A stretch of 64,000 nt of DNA, taken from positions 62,001 to 126,000 of the forward strand of contig NWQQ01000021.1 of the NCBI GenBank assembly GCA_002798255.1. The letters run 5' to 3'. The DNA comes from Lysobacteraceae bacterium NML95-0200. Lineage in GTDB: Bacteria; Pseudomonadota; Gammaproteobacteria; Xanthomonadales; Xanthomonadaceae. A program made the translations under genes and the position numbers. The notes under the pieces are model-generated. The model made no database searches. It had not been told where the DNA came from and saw only the letters and a list, made by a program, of their open reading frames with translations. Shown here piece by piece: positions 5,824 through 53,074 of this stretch. Within the stretch, counting starts at the first letter, position 1, and each line of letters begins with the position of its first letter.

Positions 5824-6148
5824 ACGCCTGTTCAAAGCCCCTTCCCGATATCCGCAGTACGACCAATGTAGCGCCGCAACCAGGACTGGCTGGCTTGCGG
5901 CTATATCTACAACCATGCGGCAGCGCCGAACAGCAGCACAGATACGCCTGCCGCCGAGAATTTCGGCTAATCTCATAAAGCCGGAAACATCAATTAGCCC
6001 ATTGTTTTCCTTGAAAAAATATGGTTATCAGTTCACCCCCCCCCCCGAAATGTGACGAAAATCACGATTTACTTGAAATTGCTCGAAATCATCCACATTC
6101 CAGACCCACTGCTTACACTCCGCCGCCTGCTGTAGAGGGCTGTTGCTG
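5824..6148. other. Intergenic region with an 11-C tract and a CRP-like site
   Basis: There is no gene in this 325-bp stretch. It contains a homopolymer of 11 C (6036-6046), directly followed by a CRP/Clp-like palindrome (6051-6066). The rest appears to be the promoter region of the unknown gene that starts at 6149. Confidence 0.6.
6051..6066 (+). promoter_or_regulatory. CRP/Clp/Vfr-like binding site
   Basis: The sequence TGTGACGAAAATCACG matches the CRP consensus TGTGA-N6-TCACA at nine of ten conserved positions. It lies about 83 bp before the ATG at 6149. In Xanthomonads the CRP homologue Clp, which senses c-di-GMP, uses nearly the same site; which protein binds here is inference. Confidence 0.6.
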
Positions 6149-7096
6149 ATGCGTACCCTGGGTTTTGCTGGAATGGACTCCAGAACACATGCTTTGTTGC
6201 ATGAGGCCTTTCTGGCTGCCGCAGAGCGCCTGCAACTTAATCTCCACCTTTGCTCCGATGCCAATGCCGACTTCGTCGTCGTCGATATGGACAGCCTGTA
6301 TGGGCCACTGAGCTGGCTGCAGCTCTATAACGCCGGGGTCACCGTGATTGGCTATACCGCTGCCGCACGCAGCCAAACCCATTTCCGGCTCGCCCGGGAC
6401 TTTGATGAGGCAGCCCTGGAAAAGCTTCTGGATGAGCTTGCCATCCCGCCCAAATCAGGCAGCGCTGCCGCCCGGCATGCCGGTGCTGCGCAAACAGCAG
6501 TGACTGCAAGCCAATCCGAGCCACTTGAAGTGGAAGCCGACACTCGGGCAAAGCTGCTTGGCCACTGGCTTGACAGTGACGAGCTGCACGGCCTGGTTCG
6601 CTTGCAGCATGAGGCAGCTCCGGCACTGGTGCTGGACATGGATACCGGGCATTACTACGGCCCGCTGACCTTGAAACCGTTGCTGCCGCTGTTTGCAACC
6701 CCGCTGCGACAAGAAGATTTCGTGCCCTTGCCGGAGAATTTCGACATCGAATCCGCCGGGCATGAACAACAAATCTCCCGTCTGCTCTGGTTTGCTGCCT
6801 TGTTGCGCGGTGACGGCAAACTGCTGCCGCCACACGATGCCAATGCCCGCTACCGGCTCAGCAAATGGATTCAGACCGAACGTGAATACCCCAAACACTT
6901 GCGCATCGCTTCGGTATTGATGAAGGCGCCTGCCAGCATCGCGGAAATCGCCCAGGCCACCACTGCCAGCCAGGCCGAGGTCGCGGACTTTCTCAATGCC
7001 TGTCTTGCCATCGGCAGCGCAGAAGCGGTTCTGCCAAGCGAACCAGCCCCTGAGCCACCCCGCCCAGGACTCCTTGAAAGGTTGGGGCTGCACTGA
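6149..7096 (+). CDS. Unknown protein with receiver-like N-terminus and winged-helix-like C-terminus
   Basis: I do not recognise this 315-residue protein. Residues 1-75 alternate strands and helices like a pseudo-receiver (DFVVVDMDSLYGPLSWLQL at 41-59, GVTVIGYT at 63-70). A low-complexity Ala-rich linker follows. A middle part contains LVLDMDTGHYYGPLTLKPLL. Near the C-terminus, RIASVLMKAPASIAEIAQ and AEVADFLNACLA look like a winged-helix fold, and the end is Pro-rich. There is no signal peptide or membrane segment. A TTG two codons upstream is possible but the ATG is preferred. The CRP-like site and C11 tract upstream suggest regulated expression. A cytoplasmic regulatory role is a guess. Confidence 0.6.
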   Translation: MRTLGFAGMDSRTHALLHEAFLAAAERLQLNLHLCSDANADFVVVDMDSLYGPLSWLQLYNAGVTVIGYTAAARSQTHFRLARDFDEAALEKLLDELAIPPKSGSAAARHAGAAQTAVTASQSEPLEVEADTRAKLLGHWLDSDELHGLVRLQHEAAPALVLDMDTGHYYGPLTLKPLLPLFATPLRQEDFVPLPENFDIESAGHEQQISRLLWFAALLRGDGKLLPPHDANARYRLSKWIQTEREYPKHLRIASVLMKAPASIAEIAQATTASQAEVADFLNACLAIGSAEAVLPSEPAPEPPRPGLLERLGLH

Positions 7097-7159: not shown

Positions 7160-9067
7160 ATGATTGATTCCTCGCGCTACCCCCGCCTCTCGCAAATCAA
7201 TACCCCCGCCGACCTGCGCCGCTTTCCTGCCGAGGAACTGCAAGCGGTGGCCGATGAATTGCGCGCCTATCTGATTGAATCTGCCGGAAAATCCGGCGGG
7301 CATTTTGGTGCCAACCTGGGCGTGGTGGAGCTGACCTGCGCCCTGCACTATCTGTACGACACCCCCCATGACCGCCTGGTCTGGGATGTCGGCCATCAGG
7401 CCTATCCGCACAAAATTCTCACTGGCCGCCGTGATGCCATCCACACGGTCAAGCAAAAAGACGGCGTGGCGCCATTCCCCAAGCGCGAAGAAAGCGAATA
7501 CGACACCTTTGGCGTGGGTCATTCCTCCACCAGCATTTCCGCAGCCCTGGGCATGGCCATTGCCAGCGCCCGGACAGGCAGCGACCGCCATGTGGTCGCC
7601 ATCATCGGCGATGGCGCAATGACCGCCGGCATGGCCTACGAGGCTCTGAACCACGCTGGCGGCATGGATGAAGAGCCCAATATCCTGGTGATTCTCAACG
7701 ACAACCGCATGTCGATTTCCGAGGCAGTCGGTGGCCTGACCCGCATGCTCGGACGCATGAGCGGCAACAAGACCCTGAACGCACTGCGCGAAGGCGGCAA
7801 AAAGCTGCTGGGCGACAAGGACAACGCCCCGGCAAAATTTGTCAAACGCTGGGAAGAACACTGGAAAGGCATGTTCGTGCCCTCCACCCTATTCGAGGAA
7901 ATGGGCTTTCATTACACCGGCCCCATCGACGGCCACGACATGAACGCCCTGCTTGCCACCCTGAGCACGCTCAAGGGCTTGAAAGGCCCGCAGTTACTGC
8001 ATGTCATCACCACCAAGGGCAAGGGCTATGAACGCGCCGAAGCCGACCAAATCGGCTATCACGCCGTATCGCCCTTTGACCCGGCCGAGGGCATGGTGAA
8101 AAAGCCCGGTGCGGTGAAAAAACCCACCTATACCGATGTCTTTGGCGACTGGCTCTGCGAGATGGCCGCCGCCGATAACAAGCTGCTCGGCATCACCCCG
8201 GCCATGCGCGAAGGCTCCGGCCTTGTACGCTTTTCAAAGGAATACCCCAGCCGCTATTTCGATGTCGCCATCGCCGAGCAACACGCCGTGACACTGGCCG
8301 CCGGCATGGCCTGCGAAGGCGCCAAGCCGGTGGTGGCGATTTATTCCACCTTTTTGCAACGCGCCTACGACCAACTGGTTCACGATGTCGCCCTGCAAAA
8401 ACTGGATGTGCTGTTTGCCATCGACCGTGGCGGCGTCGTCGGCCCCGATGGCGCCACCCACGCCGGTAATCTGGATTTGTCCTTCCTGCGCTGTGTACCG
8501 AACATGCTCATCATGGCGCCCAGTGATGAAGCCGAATGCCGCAAAATGCTCTCCACCGGCTATCAATATCCGGGCCCCGCCGCCGTGCGTTACCCGCGTG
8601 GTGGCGGCACCGGCGTGGCAGCAGGCGATACCCTGGAAACCCTGCCCATCGGCAAGGCACAACTCAAGCGCCAAGGGCAGCGGCTGGCACTGCTGGCCTT
8701 TGGCGCAGTGCTGCCCGCCGCCGAACAGGTCGCCGCAGAATTTGGCCTGTCCGTCGTTGACATGCGCTTTATCAAGCCGCTGGACAAGGCGCTGATTCTG
8801 CAGCTGGCACAAAGCCATCAGGGCTTTGTCACGCTGGAAGACAATGTCATCGCCGGTGGTGCAGGCTCGGGCGTGGCCGAACTTCTTGCCGCCGAGGGCA
8901 TCACCCTGCCGATACTGCATCTGGGCCTTCCTGATGCCTTCCAGCAACATGCCAGCCGCGAAGACCTGCTGGCCGAAGCCGGACTGGATATTGCCGGTAT
9001 CCGTGCCGCCATCCTCAGGCGCTGGCCGCAATTGGCACAGGACAACACGCAGGCAGGCAGCGCATGA
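7160..9067 (+). CDS. dxs: 1-deoxy-D-xylulose-5-phosphate synthase
   Basis: This is the first enzyme of the MEP isoprenoid pathway; it condenses pyruvate with glyceraldehyde 3-phosphate using thiamine diphosphate. The 635-residue length is normal. The thiamine-binding motif GDGAMTAG is at residues 150-157 with the downstream NDN of ILNDNRMSI. His79-Gln80 lies in [23 protein letters not shown] carries the catalytic Glu, and the transketolase C-terminal domain is complete. It overlaps the next gene by ATGA (9064-9067), so the two are co-translated. Confidence 0.97.
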
Positions 9068-17764: not shown

Positions 17765-18232
17765 TCAAAGCCCACGCCTGATGCGGGCAAGAATCGCCCG
17801 GCCGCCTTCGGCCACCTGCTGCCAGCAACGCTCAAAATCCGCCTCGCTGCCGTAATACGGGTCAAGCACGTCCTGCGCGCCCAGCCCTGCCCATTGCAGG
17901 TACAAGCCGGTTTCCGCCCCGCCCTGGCCGCGTCCGCGCTCGCGCCCATCTCGCAAGGTGGCCGCATCGGCAAACAGGATCAGGTCAAAACGGGCAAAGT
18001 CCTCGGCCTGCAAAAAACGCGCGCGCTGGGCGGAAATGTCCACACCATGCCGCGCGGCCACTTTGATGGCGCGCGAGTCCGGCGCATGCCCCACATGCCA
18101 GCGACCAATCGCCGCAGAATCTACTTCCACCCGCCCGGCCAGACTGGCATCACGGGCGATTTCCGCCGCAAGCCAGCCCTCCATCATCGGTGAGCGACAG
18201 ATATTGCCAAGACAGACAGCAAGAATTCTCAT
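17765..18232 (-). CDS. Low-molecular-weight protein tyrosine phosphatase
   Basis: This 155-residue cytoplasmic phosphatase begins with the C-x5-R loop C7-LGNIC-R13 followed by SP, and carries the general-acid motif DPYY at residues 124-127. These two motifs are sufficient for the family. LMW-PTPs of this type (Wzb-like) often control polysaccharide export kinases or heat-shock factors, but no kinase or capsule gene is nearby. The ATG at 18230-18232 is chosen because the catalytic loop must lie a few residues from the N-terminus. Confidence 0.9.
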   Translation of the reverse strand: MRILAVCLGNICRSPMMEGWLAAEIARDASLAGRVEVDSAAIGRWHVGHAPDSRAIKVAARHGVDISAQRARFLQAEDFARFDLILFADAATLRDGRERGRGQGGAETGLYLQWAGLGAQDVLDPYYGSEADFERCWQQVAEGGRAILARIRRGL

Positions 18233-18409
18233 GGGCAGAAGACCAAAACCTGGACTGGGAAGTGAAGGACAGCCGAAGAAACAGCCAGCCTCGTTAAACA
18301 ATGAGGTGAACTATCGTACAGCGCCCATCAGGGAAGGTCTGAACAACGCCCTCCTGGCGTTGTCAGCCCACGCCAAGCCCGGCACCTCAATAGACAAAAC
18401 TATCCACAA

Positions 18410-18438
18410 TGAAACTAATTATATTAGCTGCGTATAAT
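18410..18438 (+). promoter_or_regulatory. Candidate promoter of the AAA ATPase gene within an imperfect inverted repeat
   Basis: A perfect -10 hexamer TATAAT is at 18433-18438, with a weak -35-like TGAAAC at 18410-18415 (17-bp spacer). The -10 overlaps an imperfect inverted repeat (18409-18423 with 18433-18443, arms of the type ATGAAA..TTATA). The region is strikingly AT-rich compared with its flanks. Confidence 0.4.
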
Positions 18439-18470
18439 TTCATCTAATCTTTCTCTGCTCGGGCATCCGG

Positions 18471-19541
18471 ATGCAAGACCCTCTGTATTTCCCCCGTACC
18501 GAATATGCCAGCAAACTGGTCAGCAGCTTGCAAAATGGCATCACGCATGCTTTTACCCTGTTTGCCCCGCGACGCATGGGAAAGACCGAGTTTCTGCTGA
18601 AAGACATCCGACCACTGGCCGAGCAGAACGGCTTCAATGTTCTCTATTTTTCCTTCATGGACAGTGCCACCCCGGCAGCAGACTTTCAGGCTGTCCTGAG
18701 CCGCTTTGCCACCGACATCCAGACCGGCGGGAAGGCCAAAACCCTGATTGGCAGCATCAGCAAAATCGACATCATGGGGCTTGGCATCGAGCGGCAGCCA
18801 GCAGCCGAAACCCTGCCGCGCCTGTCCGAGCTGATTGGACGAATTGCCGCCGACAACCGCCCCAGCCTACTGTTGCTGGACGAGGTACAGGAGCTGGCGC
18901 GCATCAAGCACACCGAGAGCCTGATAAAGTCCCTGCGCACTGGCCTCGACATCCACAAAGACCGCATCAAAACCATCTTCACCGGCAGCAGCACCAACGG
19001 CTTGCGCGCCATGTTCAACGACAACAAAGCGCCGTTTTTCCACTTTGCCCATGCGCTGGATTTCCCGCTTTTGGGACGGGAATTTACCGATTTTCTGGCC
19101 GATATTTACCATCAACGCACCAGCACCCCCCTGAACAAGGAGGCCCTGTACCGGGCGTTTGAAGCCATGAACCACACCCCGCTGTATATGCGGGCAGCCA
19201 TTCAGGACATGATTCTCAACCCCGCACTGGACATAGAACAGGCAAGCCGTGCACGCATTGAACAGATGCACGAAAACAGCAACTATCCTGCACTATGGCA
19301 AAGCCTGACTGCCATGGAGCAGCTGATACTGCAACAGATAGCGCAAGGCAACACCGCCCTTTACAGCGAGACAACCCGCCAAGCGATTGCCGAGCGAGCA
19401 GGGTTGGCCCGTATCACACCGGCTGCGATACAAGGCAATGTCCGCAAACTGGAGCGCAAGGATTTGCTCAGCAAAAGTGGCCGTACATGGGGCATCAATA
19501 GTCCGCTGTTTCAGACATGGATTGCCGAGCAGGCGACGTAA
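18471..19541 (+). CDS. AAA/ORC-like P-loop ATPase with C-terminal winged helix
   Basis: The 356-residue protein is a STAND/ORC-like ATPase: Walker A APRRMGKT at residues 32-39, Walker B LLLLDE at 133-138, and sensor-like FTGSS at 170-174. A helical lid and a C-terminal winged-helix segment (RQAIAERAGLARITPAAIQGNVRKL) follow. Such stand-alone ATPases (PF01637-like) are widespread, often mobile, and mostly of unknown role. The family was recognised by motif and layout. It sits between the LMW phosphatase and kdsB, where Xanthomonadales usually have no such gene, and has its own AT-rich promoter and flanking repeats. A second, frameshifted family member lies at 49179-50295. Confidence 0.75.
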   Translation: MQDPLYFPRTEYASKLVSSLQNGITHAFTLFAPRRMGKTEFLLKDIRPLAEQNGFNVLYFSFMDSATPAADFQAVLSRFATDIQTGGKAKTLIGSISKIDIMGLGIERQPAAETLPRLSELIGRIAADNRPSLLLLDEVQELARIKHTESLIKSLRTGLDIHKDRIKTIFTGSSTNGLRAMFNDNKAPFFHFAHALDFPLLGREFTDFLADIYHQRTSTPLNKEALYRAFEAMNHTPLYMRAAIQDMILNPALDIEQASRARIEQMHENSNYPALWQSLTAMEQLILQQIAQGNTALYSETTRQAIAERAGLARITPAAIQGNVRKLERKDLLSKSGRTWGINSPLFQTWIAEQAT

Positions 19542-19544
19542 CAC

Positions 19545-19571
19545 CCCTGCAACTACGCGCAGGGTGACAGG
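19545..19571. repeat. Half-copy of the dispersed CCCTGC...GCAGGGTGACA repeat
   Basis: The stretch CCCTGCAACTACGCGCAGGGTGACAG resembles the right-hand hairpin of the repeats at 19620 and 28650. It lies just after the ATPase stop codon. Confidence 0.45.
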
Positions 19572-19619
19572 GGGCGGGTAAAGCTTGCACAAGGCGACGT
19601 GGTTTGTTGAATCTGAAAA

Positions 19620-19712
19620 AATCAGCCCGTCATTCTGCGCAAGCGTAAGCGCGGTCGCAGAATCTTCCTGGGCTCATCAACAGACCCTGCGGCTGCGCGC
19701 AGGGTGACAAGG
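19620..19712. repeat. Dispersed intergenic repeat, copy A
   Basis: This is a two-hairpin unit. The first part runs CCCGTCATTCTGCGCAAGCG to GCAGAATCTT and the second is ACCCTGCGGCTGCGCGCAGGGTGACA. The same arrangement, about three-quarters identical, recurs at 28650-28742. It lies between two convergent genes and resembles the class of short palindromic intergenic repeats. Confidence 0.6.
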
Positions 19713-19734
19713 CATATTTCATGACCCGAGCAAC

Positions 19735-20508
19735 TCAGCCCCGGGTTTTCTGCCAATGCGCTTGGGCGCGCGCCAGGTCCTCGGGGGTATCCACGCCAGG
19801 CGGGAAAGCCTCCGGGGTGAGGCTGACCAGGATACGATGCCCGGCTTCCAGCACGCGCAATTGCTCCAGCGACTCAAGCTGCTCCAGCCGGCCCGGTGGC
19901 ATCGCGGCAAAGTGGCGCAAGAAGCCTGCGCGATAGGCATAGATACCAATATGCCGCAGCCAGTGCTGCCCCTGCGGCAAGTCATGGCCGGGACTGGAAG
20001 CGGCGAAGCTCTCGCGGTGCCAGGGAATCGGCGCGCGGCTGAAATACAGTGCCGTGCCATCGTCCGCGCGCACCACTTTCACCGCATTGGGATCGAAAAC
20101 TTGCTCGCGCTCAGTGATAGCGGTGGCCAGCGTCGCCATCGGCGCATCGCCCCCCGCCAGCAACGCGGCCACGGCACGGATGCCGCTGGCCGGGGCAAAT
20201 GGCTCATCGCCCTGCAAATTCACCACCAGCGTGTCATCGCTCCAGCCAGCGATAGCCGCACACTCGGCCAACCGGTCGGTGCCGGAGGCATGGGTTGGCG
20301 CCGTCATCACCACCTGCACGCCGGGCAGCTGCACCGCCTCGGCGATGCGTTCATCATCGGCGGCTACCCAAACCTCGCGCGCACCGGCGGCCAGCGCGCG
20401 GCGCGCCACATGCACCACCAAAGGCGTACCGCCAATCAGCCGCAAGGGTTTTCCGGGCAGGCGCGAGGCCGCGTAACGGGCAGGGATGGCTACGACAAAA
20501 TCAGTCAT
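19735..20508 (-). CDS. kdsB: 3-deoxy-manno-octulosonate cytidylyltransferase
   Basis: KdsB activates KDO to CMP-KDO for the LPS inner core. The 257-residue protein has the nucleotidyltransferase signature [14 protein letters not shown] at residues 9-22, NLQGDEPF in the middle, and the [12 protein letters not shown] segment. The start overlaps the lpxK end by 8 bp, so the two are co-translated. It is the last gene of the exbB-exbD-msbA-lpxK-kdsB run. Confidence 0.96.
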
Positions 20509-29265: not shown

Positions 29266-32200
29266 TCAGTTGGAGCGTACCAGCTCGCGCCAGTTGACAC
29301 GCTCACCCCGGCTGCCACCCCCCAACAGTTTGGTGGTCAGCAGGCTGCCATCCAGACCCGGTGTCACCGCCGACAAGCTGCCATCTTCATTCCTGTAGAG
29401 CCTGACGCCGCCGGTGCCCCTGCCCAGATCCACCGAGCTGATATGCCCCTGGGTTCCGGGAATCTTGTCGCCCGCGCCATCCCCATTGAAATCGAAATAG
29501 CCGCCATCTCTGGGATTGGTGCCGGTAAAGACATTCAGCGCAGTCAAATAACCACCAATCTCCGAAGAGCAGCCCTGTGATGCTTTCGGCACTAGCGAAG
29601 TGACCGCCAAAAGCTCACCTGAAAGCTCCGGCCGGGTCACAATGCGCTCACCCCGGTTAAGCGAGGCCGGCACCCCCAGATCCAGATACCAGCCACGCGC
29701 ACTGGCAGGCAGCTCGGAATAGTTTTCTGCCCCGCGTACCGCCCGGCCATCAGCACTTGTCCCCAGATAGGGGAAAGTGCGCTGTTGTAGCTGTGCTCGC
29801 CCGGTAACCGGCGTGTCTCCATCAATCAGCGTGTACAACGTCTGGGTTTGCAGCGTCCCTGAGACATCCTTGTCCTGTTCCGAGAGATATTTGCCCGTAC
29901 CAAAGCTGACAAATGCCCGCCCGGTTCTGCGCTCCACCGTGACCGTCAGCCCGCCGGTAATCGGCTGCAACGCGCCCGATGCATCACGCGCGGTAAACAT
30001 GGGGCTACCGCTATTGGCTACCCCCCAGCTTGCCGCACTGCTGCCACTGAGGTCGATTTTCCAGACATTACCCTGGATATCACCGGCATAGACAATATCC
30101 ACCTGGCCATCGGCATTGCGGTCATAGGCGGTAAAGCTGGTCATGCCATTGCCGCTGCCGCCGGTCTGCCCAAAGGCATGGCGCGCTGTCACCCGGCCTG
30201 CGGCATTCAGCTCATATACCAGCACTTTGGCATTGCCTCCCTGGCTTTCCAGGCCATTGGCGGTAATCATCAGCGTGCCGCCATGATTGCCGGGCACAAT
30301 CAACGGCTGGGAAAGGATATAGCCGATATCGGCATTGACTGTATGGTCTTCATCCCAGAGCACGTTGGCAGCCGCAAAGCTGGCCGGGTGAGTCACATCC
30401 AGGGCAAACAGCCCCCTGCCGCCACGCCCCAGGGACGAGACCAGGATATTCTTGCCCGCCGTTATGCTGCGCCGGGAAACTCTCGGGATACCATCCACAA
30501 AGAAACGGTGCTGATAATACGGGTCACTCAGGGTGGCCAGCGCCCGGTAGTCAATACCGCGCGGCATATAAGAAAACAGCGGCCTGCCATCGGCGGCATT
30601 GATGGCATGCAGCATGCCATCATTGGCGCCCACAAACAGGCTGTCATTTTCGGCCACATACTCCGGCACCGAGTTGACGATATCCCCAATCAGCGAACTT
30701 GAGCGGTCACGCAGGCGACCACCATTTACTTTTTCAAGGCTACGGTCACCCTTCAGGTAGTTCAAATTATCAATCGCCGATACCGCAGAAGAGCTACTGG
30801 TACGCGCCAGCAGTGCTGCCTTGCTGCCCAAAGCCGCCAAGGAAAGCGGCGCACCGCCACCACCCTGCCCCCAGGTGAAAATGGGACGGGTGGCAAAGCC
30901 CTGGCCTGTAGCGAACAAGTCCGGGTTAAGCGTGTGCTGTGCCAGTGACCACAGCTGCGGCGCATTGGCAGTATCGCCACTGCTGAAAGCAAACGCCTGC
31001 ACATCTCCATCCCAGCTGCCAGACTGGTAACGTCCCTGATATATCCGGCTACCACCGCCAATCTTGCGACCAGTATCACCCAAGCCACCGCCAGCACCAC
31101 TTTCTCTGGCAATTGTACTCAGCGCCCTGATTAATGCTTCAGAAAATTTATCCGCATCATCTGCTGCAACGAAACCACCTCGGCTATTGATGGCAGCATG
31201 CCAAAGATCATCAATACGGGTTGCATCTTCTCTAAGCAGAGGATTCGGCCAATTAATGACCCCCGAACGTAGCCTTGCAAGAGTTGCATCCGTCGGCTCC
31301 AAAGTTCCCTGCAAGCCAATGGAAATGGGGAATGTCACCATATGCTGCCAAGTGGCCGGATTATCAATGCTTGCTGCCACATCATTGACAAGATCCGGTC
31401 GAAGATCCGTTTTCCAAAAATACATGGCAATATCAGCAAGCGTGTCCGAATGACTATCCATATAAGGTCGTGCCGCCGCATAATTTGGCGGAGAACTAGT
31501 TCCATCCGAATTCCCATAGGGGCTACCTTCTCCATCCATCCCCAAATATCTTGGTCGACCACCTATCCCAGTATCATTCCAGTAACCATCAGTTGTCAGT
31601 ATGGCGTAATTCCTGCGGCAGCTATACTCCAAACCAGTCCCATTAACGGTCCATATTTTCTTGGTATCCCTGAAATAAACACCCGTCCTATGCAGGGAAT
31701 TTCTCAACGGAGTCCAGCCATTCGCATTAACCCTGTGCAACCTATTAAACCACCTGGATTTGTTTACACCCCTAAACAAGCCAGAATCGGTTTCAACCGG
31801 AATCCCCATATTAGGAGAACTCCCGGTTCTATTGATAACATCAAAACCCACACGATACTGCTCTCCCAAATCAGAGAACGCCTCACTCGCACCCGCCTTT
31901 GCAATTTTTGCGCGTGTACGATGATAGGTATACCAGGTTGCATAATTGACGTAAGGATCAACACCCGGCTTGGTTGGCGGATCTATAGTAGTATGGTTCC
32001 ACCAGTTATATACCCCGCCGGGACGCAACACATACTCACGACGAATCCATTTCCCCGTATCTTTATCAATCGTATAATACCAATAGTTCTTTCTATCGAG
32101 CTTTTCATCATCCGTAACCAATACTCGCTTTGGAATAAAGAATGCCGCCGCATCCTTACTTCCCAGCAAACTTATCGCATATGGATATGTACCATGCTCA

Positions 32201-48739: not shown

Positions 48740-49156
48740 TCATGCATTGAGCTCATCAGGCACAAACGCGGTGCCCTGATGAAAGCGCATGACCCAGCCA
48801 TCGGGGGTGCGCGTCCACAGGGAGGAACGATGCGTGTATTCAATCGCTCCGTTTTCTTGCGTCAAGATACTGTCGTACAGCAGTTGCGCGGTATCGGCAT
48901 CCAGAAGACGCACTTGCAGATTTGGCAGCGGCAGGCGGCAATTAATGGGTTGCGGCGCTGCGGCCAGGCACTGCGCCCGGTTGTAGATTCGCCCGGAGCG
49001 CCCCAGTTCGATGAAGTCGGCCGCCAAATGCTGCTGCATGAACTTCAAATCGAACCGGGTTTCCGCGCGCCACATGGCTTCTTCCAGCGCGGTCAACAAC
49101 GCGGCATCTGCCGGACTCAGCTCGCTCTGCCGCATGGCTTCCCCCGTGTCTTTCAT
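48740..49156 (-). CDS. NTF2-like (DUF4440) protein
   Basis: The 138-residue protein is a single cone-shaped SnoaL/NTF2-like domain: an N-terminal helix (LTALEEAMWRAETRFDLKFMQQHL), ADFIELGRSGRIYNR, and strands ending in HRSSLWTRTPDGWVMRFHQGTAF. Domains of this kind hold small ligands or catalyse varied reactions, so no activity is assigned. The ATG at 49154-49156 follows GGGG; a TTG at 49162 is less likely. The AAA ATPase remnant lies just upstream in the same direction. Confidence 0.75.
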   Translation of the reverse strand: MKDTGEAMRQSELSPADAALLTALEEAMWRAETRFDLKFMQQHLAADFIELGRSGRIYNRAQCLAAAPQPINCRLPLPNLQVRLLDADTAQLLYDSILTQENGAIEYTHRSSLWTRTPDGWVMRFHQGTAFVPDELNA

Positions 49157-49178
49157 GCGCAATCCCCGTCAAAATGCC

Positions 49179-50295
49179 TTATTTTTCAGAAAGCCTTGCA
49201 ATCCGTGCAGCGACATAAATTTCCAGGGCGCGGTCTTCAATTTCATACTCGCCCGCCTCTCCTTTTGGAGCAAGCACCATGTTTTTCACCATTCGATTGA
49301 CGGCTGTTTGAATCCGCTGCGGACTGTACGGCTTTTCCTCTCCGAGCAGCTTTGTAACCTTTGCACTGAACTCGGCACTGAAAAGGCTTATTGGCTGCTT
49401 GCTGGCCAGGTGTTCCACGATGACTTTATCCACTGGCTTGAGTTTCACCCATTGCTCGTATGCGCCTTGGTCACCCAGTGCTTGTTGCCAGAGGCTAAAA
49501 CCTTCCCACGGGTCAGCGGTTAGACTCACCATGGTATGCAGCACAATCTGGTTGAGATACATCGGAACGCGAGCAATTTTGTTGAAAACTTTGCCCAGCT
49601 CGACGGCATCCATCCGCTTCCCTGTGATTTCTTCAAATATCACTGCACGGTCCTCGACAAAATCGGCACCAAGCTCCGGCAGCGGCAACGGCATTGCTGA
49701 CTCAAACAAAGGTGCTTTGCGTTTTCGGAACATACTGTTCAATGCATCGCGCGATGAGCCGGTAAAAAAACAGTTTTAGCCGCAGCTGTAGTTCCTGCAT
49801 CGTCGCGCGGAAAGTGGAAACAAAGTCCTCGTGCTTTCCTGCCGCCAACGTCTGAAACTCATCCACAACCAACAATACTGATTCATTTCCCTGTCCAACC
49901 AGAGCTCGCATCGCCCGCTTCAAGCGACCTTGGAGGTCAATCTCAAGGTTAGATGCACCGCTCCATTCAGCCTGAATACCGGTACTGCCATAACCGGCTT
50001 TTGCCAGCAGCTTATCTGGCTTTTTCAGTGTTTGCTCCCGTTCTACAAAGCCCTCAAGTTCTTCGACCAGCCCAAGCTCAGGGTTGTCACGCCGCACCCA
50101 TAAGTCGATGTAATAAGCACGCCAGCGCCATGTTTCTGCTGCGGGTAGCAGCTCCTGTTTAACAAAGAGGGTTTTCCCCATGCGCCTTCCTGCAAACATT
50201 GTCAGCGCATGGGTAAGACCCGAGGTCAGCAGACCATGAATCGTCTCGACCAAATCCTTCCTCGGGAAATAGCGGATACTGTCCTGACTACCCAT
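49179..50295 (-). pseudogene. AAA/ORC-like ATPase, disrupted by a one-base frameshift
   Basis: Two frames together encode one ATPase related to that at 18471. The upstream frame has YFPRKDLV, Walker A AGRRMGKT, Walker B VLLVVDEFQTL and LRLKLFF, then shifts. Removing one A from the A7 run at 49764-49770 (seven T on the coding strand) restores FTGSS, the sensor motif of the intact paralogue, and a 371-residue frame ending SEK. The two proteins share the RRMGKT loop, the acidic Walker B and the C-terminal winged helix. It could be a real mutation, a sequencing error in the homopolymer, or slippage-based switching. The gene is AT-richer than neighbours. Confidence 0.7.
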
Positions 50296-50318
50296 CACGA
50301 GCCCCACCATTATTCATA

Positions 50319-50338
50319 ATTATGAAATTTATCATAAT
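50319..50338 (-). promoter_or_regulatory. Perfect inverted repeat upstream of the disrupted ATPase
   Basis: ATTATGA (50319-50325) and TCATAAT (50332-50338) are perfect inverted arms around AATTTA. They lie about 25 bp before the ATPase start in a very AT-rich patch and may be an operator. Confidence 0.4.
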
Positions 50339-50374
50339 TTTGCATAAATCGAGGGCAAGTCTCGCATGTAGCTG

Positions 50375-52987
50375 TCAGCCCGCCTCAGCAGACAAAAAAT
50401 CCTGGGCGAAGCGTTGCAGCACGCCGCCGGCTTCGTAGATCGAGACTTCTTCGTCCGAATCCAGGCGGCACTTCACCGGCACCTGCACCGTGCTTCCATC
50501 ACGGCGGTGAATGATGAGGGCGAGTTCCGCGCCGGGTTTGCGCTGGCCGGTGACATCGAAGGTTTCGCTGCCGTCGATGCCGTAAGTCTTGCGGCTTTCG
50601 CCGGGCAGAAACTCCAGCGGCAGTACGCCCATGCCGATGAGATTGGTGCGGTGGATGCGCTCGAAACCTTCGGCAACGATGGCTTCGACGCCGGCCAGGC
50701 GCACGCCCTTGGCCGCCCAGTCGCGCGAGCTGCCCTGACCGTAGTCGGCGCCGGCGATGATGATCAGGTTCTGGCCGCGCTGCATATGGGTTTCGATGGC
50801 CTCCCACATGCGCATTACGGTGCCGTCCGGCTCCAGCCGGGTCAGCGAGCCTTGCTTGACTTCGCCATCGACCACGGCCATTTCGTTGATGAGCTTGGGG
50901 TTGGCGAAGGTGGCGCGCTGCGCGGTGAGATGGTCGCCGCGATGGGTAGCGTAGGAGTTGAAGTCCTCCTCCGGCAGACCCATTTTGGCAAGGTATTCAC
51001 CGGCGGCGCTGCTGGGCAGAATCGCGTTGCTGGGCGAGAGGTGGTCGGTGGTGATGTTATCGCCCAGCACCGCCAGCGCGCGCATGCCCTTGAGCGTGCG
51101 CTCACCGGCCAATGCGCCTTCCCAATACGGCGGGCGGCGGATATAGGTGCTTTGCGCTCGCCAGTCATACAGCGGCTTGGCGCGCTCGCCGCTATCCAGA
51201 TGCAGTTTGAACATCGGCTCATACACGGCGCGGAATTGCTCAGGCTTGACGCTGGCTTTCACCACCGCGTCGATTTCGGCATCGCTTGGCCAGATATCTT
51301 TCAGGCGTACTTCATTGCCCTCAGCATCCACGCCGAGCACGTCTTTTTCGATATCAAAGCGCATCGTCCCGGCAATGGCATAGGCAATCACCAGCGGCGG
51401 GCTGGCCAGGAAGGCCTGCTTGGCATAGGGGTGGATGCGGCCATCGAAATTGCGGTTGCCGCTGAGCACGGCGGTGGCATACAGGTCGCGCGCGATGATT
51501 TCGTTTTGAATCGCGGCATCGAGCGCGCCACTCATGCCGTTGCAGGTGGTGCAGGCAAAGGCAACGATGCCAAAGCCGAGTTTTTCCAGTTCCGGCAACA
51601 GCCCGGCTTCTTGCAGGTACAGCTCGACCGCGCGCGAGCCGGGGGCGAGCGAGGTTTTCACCCAGGGCTTGCGCGTGAGTCCGCGCGCATTGGCATTGCG
51701 GGCGAGCAAGCCTGCGGCAATCACATTGCGCGGGTTGGAGGTATTGGTGCAGCTGGTAATGGCGGCGATGATGACCGCGCCATCGGGCAATTGTCCGGCA
51801 GCTTCTTCAGCGCGCGCGGCGGCCAGTTTCTCGGCATCGGCAATACCGCGCTCGGCCAGCGCCGTCACCGGCAGGCGGCGATGCGGATTGGACGGCCCGG
51901 CCAGCGTGCGGGTGACGCTGCCAAGGTCGAACTTCAGCACGCGCTCGTATTCGGCCGTGGCCAAATCATCCGCCCACAGCCCGGCGGTCCTGGCATAGGT
52001 TTCCACCAGCTTGACCTGGCTTTCTTCGCGCCCGGTCAGGCGCAGATAGTCCAGGGTTTGCGCATCGATATAGAACAGCGCCGCAGTCGCGCCGTATTCC
52101 GGCGTCATATTGGCGATGGTGGCGCGGTCGCCAATGGTCAGATGCGCCGCACCTTCGCCAAAGAATTCCAGATACGCCCCGACCACGCGCTCGGCGCGCA
52201 GGAACTCGGTCAGCGCCAGCACGATATCGGTGGCGGTGATACCCGGCGCCGGTTTGCCGGTCAACTCCACGCCGACGATATCCGGCAGGCGCATCCACGA
52301 AGCGCGCCCCAGCATCACGTTTTCGGCCTCAAGACCACCAACGCCAATGGCAATCACCCCCAGCGCATCCACATGCGGGGTATGGCTGTCGGTACCCACA
52401 CAGGTGTCGGGGAAGGCCACGCCATCCTGCACATACACCACCGGCGACATCTTCTCCAGATTGATCTGGTGCATGATGCCGTTGCCGGGCGGAATTACTT
52501 CGACATTACGAAAAGCGCGCTTGCACCAGTCGATAAAGTGAAAACGGTCGGCATTGCGGCGGTCTTCAATCGCACGATTCTTGGCAAAGGCATCCGGGTC
52601 ATAGCCCGGCGCTTCCACCGCCAGCGAGTGATCCACAATCAACTGCGTGGGCACCACCGGATTGATTTGCGCCGGGTCGCCACCGGCTTCGGCAATGGCA
52701 TCGCGCAAGCCCGCCAAATCCACAAATGCCGTCTGCCCGAGAATGTCATGGCAAACCACGCGCACCGGGAACCACGGGAAATCCAGGTCACGGCGGCGCT
52801 CAATCAATTGCCCCAGATAATCATTCAAGCGCGCAGGCTCGGCACGACGCACCAGATTCTCGGCATGCACGCGCGCGGTGTAGGGCAAACGCGCCCAAGC
52901 CCCCGGCGCGATAGCATCGACCGCAGCGCGCGCATCGTAAAAATCCAGCGAGGTTTCAGGCAAAGGTTTGCGAAAAGCAGCGTTCAT
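50375..52987 (-). CDS. acnD: 2-methylcitrate dehydratase, Fe/S-dependent, AcnD type
   Basis: AcnD, with PrpF, replaces PrpD in propionate catabolism, dehydrating 2-methylcitrate. The 870-residue protein is an aconitase-superfamily member with SCTNTSNP and CTTCNGM, which supply the cluster cysteines, and the C-terminal swivel domain (YGQGSSRDWAAKG, GMGVLPLEF). The N-terminus (KPLPETSLDFYDARAAVDAI) matches AcnD rather than AcnA. The ATG at 52985-52987 is chosen to give this N-terminus. prpF is 4.7 kb away; prpB, prpC and a regulator are not in the window. Confidence 0.88.
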   Translation of the reverse strand: MNAAFRKPLPETSLDFYDARAAVDAIAPGAWARLPYTARVHAENLVRRAEPARLNDYLGQLIERRRDLDFPWFPVRVVCHDILGQTAFVDLAGLRDAIAEAGGDPAQINPVVPTQLIVDHSLAVEAPGYDPDAFAKNRAIEDRRNADRFHFIDWCKRAFRNVEVIPPGNGIMHQINLEKMSPVVYVQDGVAFPDTCVGTDSHTPHVDALGVIAIGVGGLEAENVMLGRASWMRLPDIVGVELTGKPAPGITATDIVLALTEFLRAERVVGAYLEFFGEGAAHLTIGDRATIANMTPEYGATAALFYIDAQTLDYLRLTGREESQVKLVETYARTAGLWADDLATAEYERVLKFDLGSVTRTLAGPSNPHRRLPVTALAERGIADAEKLAAARAEEAAGQLPDGAVIIAAITSCTNTSNPRNVIAAGLLARNANARGLTRKPWVKTSLAPGSRAVELYLQEAGLLPELEKLGFGIVAFACTTCNGMSGALDAAIQNEIIARDLYATAVLSGNRNFDGRIHPYAKQAFLASPPLVIAYAIAGTMRFDIEKDVLGVDAEGNEVRLKDIWPSDAEIDAVVKASVKPEQFRAVYEPMFKLHLDSGERAKPLYDWRAQSTYIRRPPYWEGALAGERTLKGMRALAVLGDNITTDHLSPSNAILPSSAAGEYLAKMGLPEEDFNSYATHRGDHLTAQRATFANPKLINEMAVVDGEVKQGSLTRLEPDGTVMRMWEAIETHMQRGQNLIIIAGADYGQGSSRDWAAKGVRLAGVEAIVAEGFERIHRTNLIGMGVLPLEFLPGESRKTYGIDGSETFDVTGQRKPGAELALIIHRRDGSTVQVPVKCRLDSDEEVSIYEAGGVLQRFAQDFLSAEAG

Positions 52988-53074
52988 CGGGTCTGGCATT
53001 GGGCTGGGATGAAAGATAGGCAGCATTTTAGCTGCCCCCATCCATCGATGCCCCTACCTTGTTTCAAACCCCGC

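Follow-up and report, generated by a model that had tools for sequence, protein, structure and literature searches.

A seven-base tract splits an ORC-like ATPase gene in a Lysobacteraceae genome: probably a recent null allele of a laterally moved gene

The stretch of DNA analysed here, called the window throughout, measures 64,000 nucleotides and carries, next to acnA, a gene for a P-loop ATPase interrupted by a single change of frame in a run of seven identical bases. The locus raises the question whether the gene has recently died, is intact in the cell and broken in the assembly, or still yields product by a variable tract, by slippage or by separate translation of its two parts. The reading favoured, with fair confidence, is that of a null allele which arose recently in an ordinary ATPase gene of lateral origin.

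The broken gene and its intact orthologue

The gene and its parts are located as follows.

49179–50295, minus strand: frameshifted ATPase gene, coding for an ATPase domain and a C-terminal winged helix; probably starts with the ATG at 50295 and stops at 49179
49702–50310, minus strand: upstream ORF, 202 aa; carries the P-loop and Walker B and ends in 20 out-of-frame residues
49179–49742, minus strand: downstream ORF, 187 aa if started at TTG; encodes the lid region and the winged helix; overlaps the upstream ORF by 41 bases
49764–49770, minus strand: T7 tract (A7 on the plus strand), site of the frame change, at the strand before the T-G-S-S motif
50170–50187, minus strand: Walker A motif RRMGKT, in invariant or near-invariant columns of an alignment of 14 members
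49858–49875, minus strand: Walker B motif LLVVDE, in invariant or near-invariant columns of the same alignment
49200–49442, minus strand: C-terminal winged-helix region, approximate limits, from the secondary structure in a model of the intact relative

Translation of the first ORF (49702–50310, minus strand) reads Walker A as GRRMGKT and Walker B as LLVVDEFQTL; at the tract the ORF departs from the homologous frame and meets a stop after 20 unrelated residues. The second frame begins at 49763 with TGSSRD and is open through to the stop at 49179. T-G-S-S motifs on the strand after Walker B serve as sensor-type motifs, and in the broken gene this motif is out of frame with the ATPase half. The frameshift is a real feature of the assembly. 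Its placement by the initial annotation in the A7 run at 49764–49770, at a sensor-type motif, is borne out by the position of the frame change, by the opening residues of the second frame, and by a six-base tract with an open frame in a related genome; the 371 residues given there for the restored protein equal the sum of the two parts, in codons, from the ATG at 50295. The tract is not unusual for the window, where A7/T7 runs number 5, against 5.24 expected from shuffles.

A scan of the genome contigs found one intact relative locus, in Lysobacteraceae bacterium NML07-0707, which belongs to the same genus and carries the gene at the same genomic place; a literature search by this isolate name found no paper. 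The NML07-0707 orthologue is one open frame of 376 aa, and its tract is one base shorter (six). The two DNAs are identical at 1248 of 1295 positions over 49106–50400, flanks included. The ratio dN/dS between the two copies is 0.20 before the tract and 0.28 after it, with 6 and 8 nonsynonymous differences, respectively. Up to residue 368, which the comparison covered, 13 residues differ (6 before the tract, 7 after), and the invariant and near-invariant columns are spared. Residue 284 is Y or F in 12 of 13 other members, Y in the window copy and H in NML07-0707. Had the window lineage evolved freely since the split, and the other at a ratio of 0.2, some 17 nonsynonymous differences would be expected after the tract by a rough Poisson estimate, and the probability of finding 8 or fewer is 0.01. 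A second one-base indel, at 49201, separates the window from NML07-0707 (locus record L003:6060–6131) near the 3' end of the gene, and the last residues of the two proteins differ.

The part after the break is without other decay, which leaves three possibilities: a very recent break, an assembly artefact or a function that persists. Most weight goes to the first, because slippage in short runs is common and the gene is dispensable (see below). Gain of one base in a short T run by replication slippage is a common event, and such a gain would have split a single-gene ATPase, which the lineage carries between acnA and a DUF4440 gene as an insert of lateral origin. The seven-base allele would be present in the cell's DNA. 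Translation would stop 20 residues past the tract, and the T-G-S-S motif, the lid and the winged helix would not be made from the same start, so that the broken gene is most likely inactive. As in recent-indel pseudogenes, an intact orthologue resides in a near relative and a single lesion disrupts the gene in the assembly.

A patchily distributed insert with relatives on plasmids

The surroundings of the gene, and a second gene of the same type in the window, are the following.

49163–50374, no strand assigned: insert between acnA and the DUF4440 gene, delimited by a near-empty site in another genome of the genus (G010) and by composition
50375–53041, minus strand: acnA
48740–49162, minus strand: DUF4440 gene (Pfam)
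18471–19541, plus strand: intact paralogue, 356 aa, a solitary insert flanked by genes for a low-molecular-weight phosphatase and a cytidylyltransferase

The GC content is 0.52–0.54 in windows over the ATPase gene, against 0.58–0.67 on either side. In a set holding one genome per species, the ATPase gene was found in 2 of 17 genomes of the genus, the window's own included, and an acnA match in all 17. Absence from the other 15 makes the gene dispensable. In G010, 5 bases separate the match to the end of acnA from that to the start of the DUF4440 gene. In G001, the nearest by acnA of six genomes compared (94.8% DNA identity), the ATPase gene is absent and the sequence adjoining acnA differs. 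The gene was probably acquired from outside.

At synonymous sites, the window and NML07-0707 diverge by 0.07 in each of the two parts of the ATPase gene, by 0.33 in acnA and by 0.53 in the DUF4440 gene; the lower value in the ATPase gene is significant by Fisher tests against acnA (p about 2e-12) and against the DUF4440 gene (p about 2e-11). Low divergence extends from about 49106 to 50389, slightly beyond the insert and into the DUF4440 gene, and for this reason homologous recombination fits better than independent insertion. Exchange between species by homologous recombination would be the simplest account of the low divergence. Divergence within acnA (50375–53041) is itself uneven, stretches of 1–4 differences per 100 bases lying beside stretches of 10–19, a possible sign of recombination between species.

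The gene was also considered as a single-gene mobile element with defined ends. A repeat search over 49100–50460 found neither terminal inverted repeats nor a clear target duplication, and this candidate was rejected. So was a phage origin: tblastn of the first ORF against 50,697 phage records gave no match, and 153 stretches in viral contigs that matched the sequence pattern include none encoding a relative by tblastn.

Relatives are found on plasmids. By tblastn, 111 plasmid records match the family, 97 with a match that covers 80% or more of the query. Among the matches listed (24 of the 111 records), a single tblastn piece runs across the T-G-S-S motif in 23; the exception is a Xanthomonas citri record, in which the match is confined to residues 276–368. 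A role in conjugation was considered and set aside: mobH and traD follow the ATPase gene on both Rhodanobacter plasmids, and neither is annotated in the other 14 regions (3–5 kb on each side, one cut at the end of its record). Apart from these two genes in the Rhodanobacter plasmids, no partner gene is shared among the 16 plasmid regions. In the copy on the megaplasmid of Acidithiobacillus caldus SM-1 (L073:2995–4140), residue 287 is followed by an in-frame stop, and the annotation gives two hypothetical proteins there. This lesion is of a different kind and lies much nearer the C-terminus than the break in the window; a member of the family has thus died elsewhere too.

Kinship of the broken gene with the ATPase at 18471, asserted from the outset, was recovered by comparison with the ORF 18471–19541 (31% identity over residues 9–182, E 4.6e-12); the intact NML07-0707 relative is 27% identical to this paralogue. 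In the region of the paralogue (18218–19749) the flanking matches lie 23 bases apart in G001, and about 1 kb of unmatched sequence is found there in NML07-0707.

The protein family and its promoter repeats

By its predicted fold, the gene product is an SSO1545/ORC-like ATPase with a winged helix at its C-terminus; its gene stands alone and has a patchy distribution. Residues G45 K46 and D150 E151 are invariant in an alignment of 14 members, and Walker A and Walker B both reside in the first ORF of the window. A T/A-G-S-S motif is found in all aligned intact members, as TGSS in 15/17 and AGSS in 2/17. The 17-member alignment omits the Acidithiobacillus copy, which has the in-frame stop; the Polaromonas, Xanthomonas and Variovorax copies are omitted as well from the 14-member alignment. 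In the model of the intact relative, helices at 292–302, 312–322 and 330–342 and strands at 346–348 and 355–357 may be interpreted as a winged helix, and the C-terminal block (residues 291–360) has pLDDT values of 76–89. The model was built from two sequences and is of moderate quality (pLDDT 62.2, pTM 0.49), and its structural matches speak to fold only. In the intact protein, this ATPase with its winged helix would probably be DNA-binding.

A profile of the 14 members matches SSO1545 (PDB 2fna) at positions 23–345 with E 1.2e-7. In Foldseek searches, archaeal P-loop ATPases of the SSO1545/PABY2304 type come first (2qen, E 5.9e-8) and fourth (2fna). Aligned to the model with VIA-align, 2qen gives Z 13.3 (rmsd 7.6, 306 residues aligned) and 2fna gives Z 11.7 (rmsd 8.2, 310 aligned). 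SSO1545-type ATPases are archaeal, whereas the family described here is bacterial and often plasmid-borne. ORC/Cdc6 initiators share the AAA+ core followed by a winged helix, and 1w5t and 2qby are within one Z unit of 2qen, a distance at which structures are regarded as tied; sequence identity to ORC/Cdc6 is, however, 11–15%, and no replication context was seen at the window locus. The many ORC entries do not demonstrate an origin-binding function. TnsC, MuB and NLR proteins are also among the structural matches.

Pfam ATPase_2 (PF01637) is matched by 12 of the 14 members and AAA_14 also by 12 of 14, at E ≤0.01. The gathering score of ATPase_2 (33.2) is reached neither by the paralogue (28.1 bits) nor by the first ORF (14.5); the paralogue is above the AAA_14 cut-off (31.6 vs 27), and the intact relative has no Pfam match at E 0.01. 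The family works and folds like SSO1545-like ATPases and is not a member by Pfam. A weak match to the PADLOC model PDC-S27 involves the ATPase half alone (P0004, E 5e-7, profile positions 5–164 of 484); this model is matched by 2 of the 14 members, and any PDC-S01 model by at most 3. PDC-S27 and PDC-S01 are described, in a part of PMC12988326, as an ATPase fused to a PD-(D/E)xK nuclease, whereas the family here has a predicted winged-helix C-terminus, and no nuclease is among the six Pfam families matched by the 14 members. Similar in design is IniR, a mycobacterial regulatory ATPase for which an excerpt of PMC5760070 gives a predicted SSO1545-like ATPase domain, a DNA-binding domain and reported promoter binding. 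IniR of M. marinum measures 818 aa and has a MalT-like middle domain which the family here lacks.

NCBIfam has no match for the paralogue or for either half of the broken gene. PHROGs gave a single weak match, to a DnaB-like helicase (E 0.065), and phmmer with the intact relative against PDB gave none at E up to 1. A literature search on STAND/MNS, SSO1545 and PDC candidates brought up nothing on the ATPase family beyond the portions of PMC12988326 and PMC5760070 cited above.

Both genes of the window are preceded by inverted repeats.

50318–50339, minus strand: inverted repeat AATTATGA-N6-TCATAATT, candidate operator, 22 bp before the ATG at 50295
18417–18439, plus strand: inverted repeat AATTATA-N9-TATAATT upstream of the paralogue, candidate operator

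The repeat before the broken gene is identical in NML07-0707. A perfect inverted repeat (arms of at least 6, spacer of 4–10) is found within 100 bp before the start in 14/18 family genes, against 8/53 neighbouring genes (Fisher p 2e-6), and in a narrower upstream stretch in 12/18 against 6/53. The 53 control starts were picked by hand from annotation tables and are not exhaustive; the NML07-0707 copy, a near duplicate, was excluded from the family count, the two Rhodanobacter copies are related to each other, and the starts used for Polaromonas and Variovorax differ from the annotated ones. Comparison with shuffles matters, since the family promoters are perhaps richer in A and T. When all sequences are combined, family genes surpass their own shuffles (p about 2e-6), in contrast to the controls (p 0.90). 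Taken singly, 5/18 family sequences and 5/53 controls reach p ≤0.05 over 100 bp, a weaker contrast than that by arm length; in the narrower stretch the counts are 6/18 and 4/53. No repeat with arms of 6 was found in four members (Vibrio tubiashii, Stutzerimonas, pQBR103, Polaromonas). The member on a Xanthomonas euvesicatoria plasmid, 534 aa long with a C-terminal extension, has a perfect 18-bp inverted repeat with a spacer of 7 just before the start codon, 13–55 bp upstream of 2983 (L076).

Repeat sequences vary from member to member, as would be the case if every protein recognised a site of its own. The enrichment suggests self-regulation of the ATPase: the winged helix may bind the inverted repeat, and the intact protein may by this means control its own promoter. 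A frameshift alone is an everyday way for a dispensable acquired gene to die. The more useful by-product is a family of solitary ORC-like winged-helix ATPases without an NCBIfam name and with promoter repeats more frequent than in neighbouring genes. The repeats make self-regulation a simple bench question, for which the near-identical broken and intact alleles are a natural control.

Alternative readings of the tract

ORFs of three near genomes were mapped onto the window at 60% identity or more and 70% coverage or more, with overlaps removed. Those split between frames number 1/19 for NML07-0707 (G006), 0/21 for G001 and 0/14 for G010; the 54 mapped ORFs, which are not all distinct loci, cover 22.2, 27.0 and 16.4 kb, respectively, and the mapping is blind to a frame change in the last tenth of a gene. 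The sole split ORF among the 54 is the ATPase gene at 50295–49179.

The main rival of a recent null allele, itself rather unlikely, holds that the chromosomal gene is intact and that the extra base is a homopolymer artefact of sequencing or assembly. The position of the base in a homopolymer and the draft state of the assembly (46 contigs) speak for it. The absence of decay past the tract, in dN/dS and in residue differences, weighs against a recent null allele in that it equally fits an assembly error or a still-functional gene. Isolated, BLASTp-validated frameshifts are moreover expected, in the section of PMC3711429 that treats them, to be sequencing errors rather than genuine indels; the singleton frameshift genes of that section (indel pseudogenes or sequencing errors) likewise have one isolated frameshift and intact homologues, and no feature was found that distinguishes the gene studied here from them. 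On the other hand, 53 of the 54 mapped ORFs are unbroken despite other runs of 6–11 bases in the window (not all within mapped ORFs), and the second indel at 49201, in the same gene, could reflect a tolerance of indels, although an error in one of the two assemblies would give the same picture. Phase variation, a reversible change of tract length that switches the ATPase on and off, is improbable. Six bases with an open frame in NML07-0707 and seven with a broken one in the window are what such a switch would give, and coding constraint is still visible past the break; yet the tract is short, A7 runs are as common in the window as chance predicts, and the paralogue (18471–19541) contains no A, T or G runs of 6 or more and no C runs of 7 or more. 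The synonymous divergence of acnA between the two genomes (0.33) points to one change between species, not to switching.

Recoding, in which RNA polymerase or ribosome slippage on U7 would yield some full-length protein, has very little probability. In its favour, the frame changes right at the homopolymer, 41 bases are shared by the two ORFs, and constraint after the break would fit. Full length would nevertheless require a +1 shift or loss of one U, as a −1 slip gives LPAHRAMH (eight codons) and then a stop; in E. coli, according to a passage of PMC5574713, runs show mainly single-base insertions, deletions within runs being rare. As for run length, PMC1088944 reports that many genomes show selection against slippage-prone runs at nine nucleotides, with the length varying and the trend unclear in GC-rich genomes. 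The frameshift site is not conserved either, the NML07-0707 copy, the paralogue and 15 plasmid members being in frame. No more credence is given to a functional split, in which both ORFs are translated, the second by reinitiation, into an ATPase piece and a free winged-helix piece. TTG and ATG codons in frame with the second ORF lie just upstream of the stop of the first, and the promoter inverted repeat is intact; against this, no clear Shine-Dalgarno sequence was seen by eye before these codons, and no homologue is broken at the same place among those examined. It is likewise very improbable, if marginally less so, that the tract slowly switches a self-regulating ORC-like ATPase of plasmid type, whose OFF state leaves a free winged-helix piece on its own inverted-repeat operator; were this true, a one-base change would convert an ATP-controlled regulator into an ATP-independent one.

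The initial annotation had held slippage, phase variation and sequencing error to be equally possible. This parity does not stand: NML07-0707 has an intact orthologue whose tract is shorter, the −1 frame leads nowhere, the tract falls short of the run length at which many bacteria show selection against slippage (PMC1088944), and it holds the sole break among the mapped ORFs, counted as above with loci partly repeated. A plain recent mutation, which had not been named, is the leading reading.

At the level of single bases the survey is less clean than the ORF mapping. Against NML07-0707, the tract and 49201 stand out; other unpaired frame-changing differences are, by location in the ORF table, near gene starts, intergenic, or in a 69% alignment. 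Against G001, a cluster at 31220–31370 is added, in the divergent alignment of a PilY1-like ORF. The longest entry in the list of runs for the window is a C11 run at 6036–6046, apparently intergenic, about 100 bp upstream of the ORF 6143–7096, which is followed by an ORF at 7160 that we take to be dxs-like. For length variation, this C11 run is a stronger candidate than the A7 tract.
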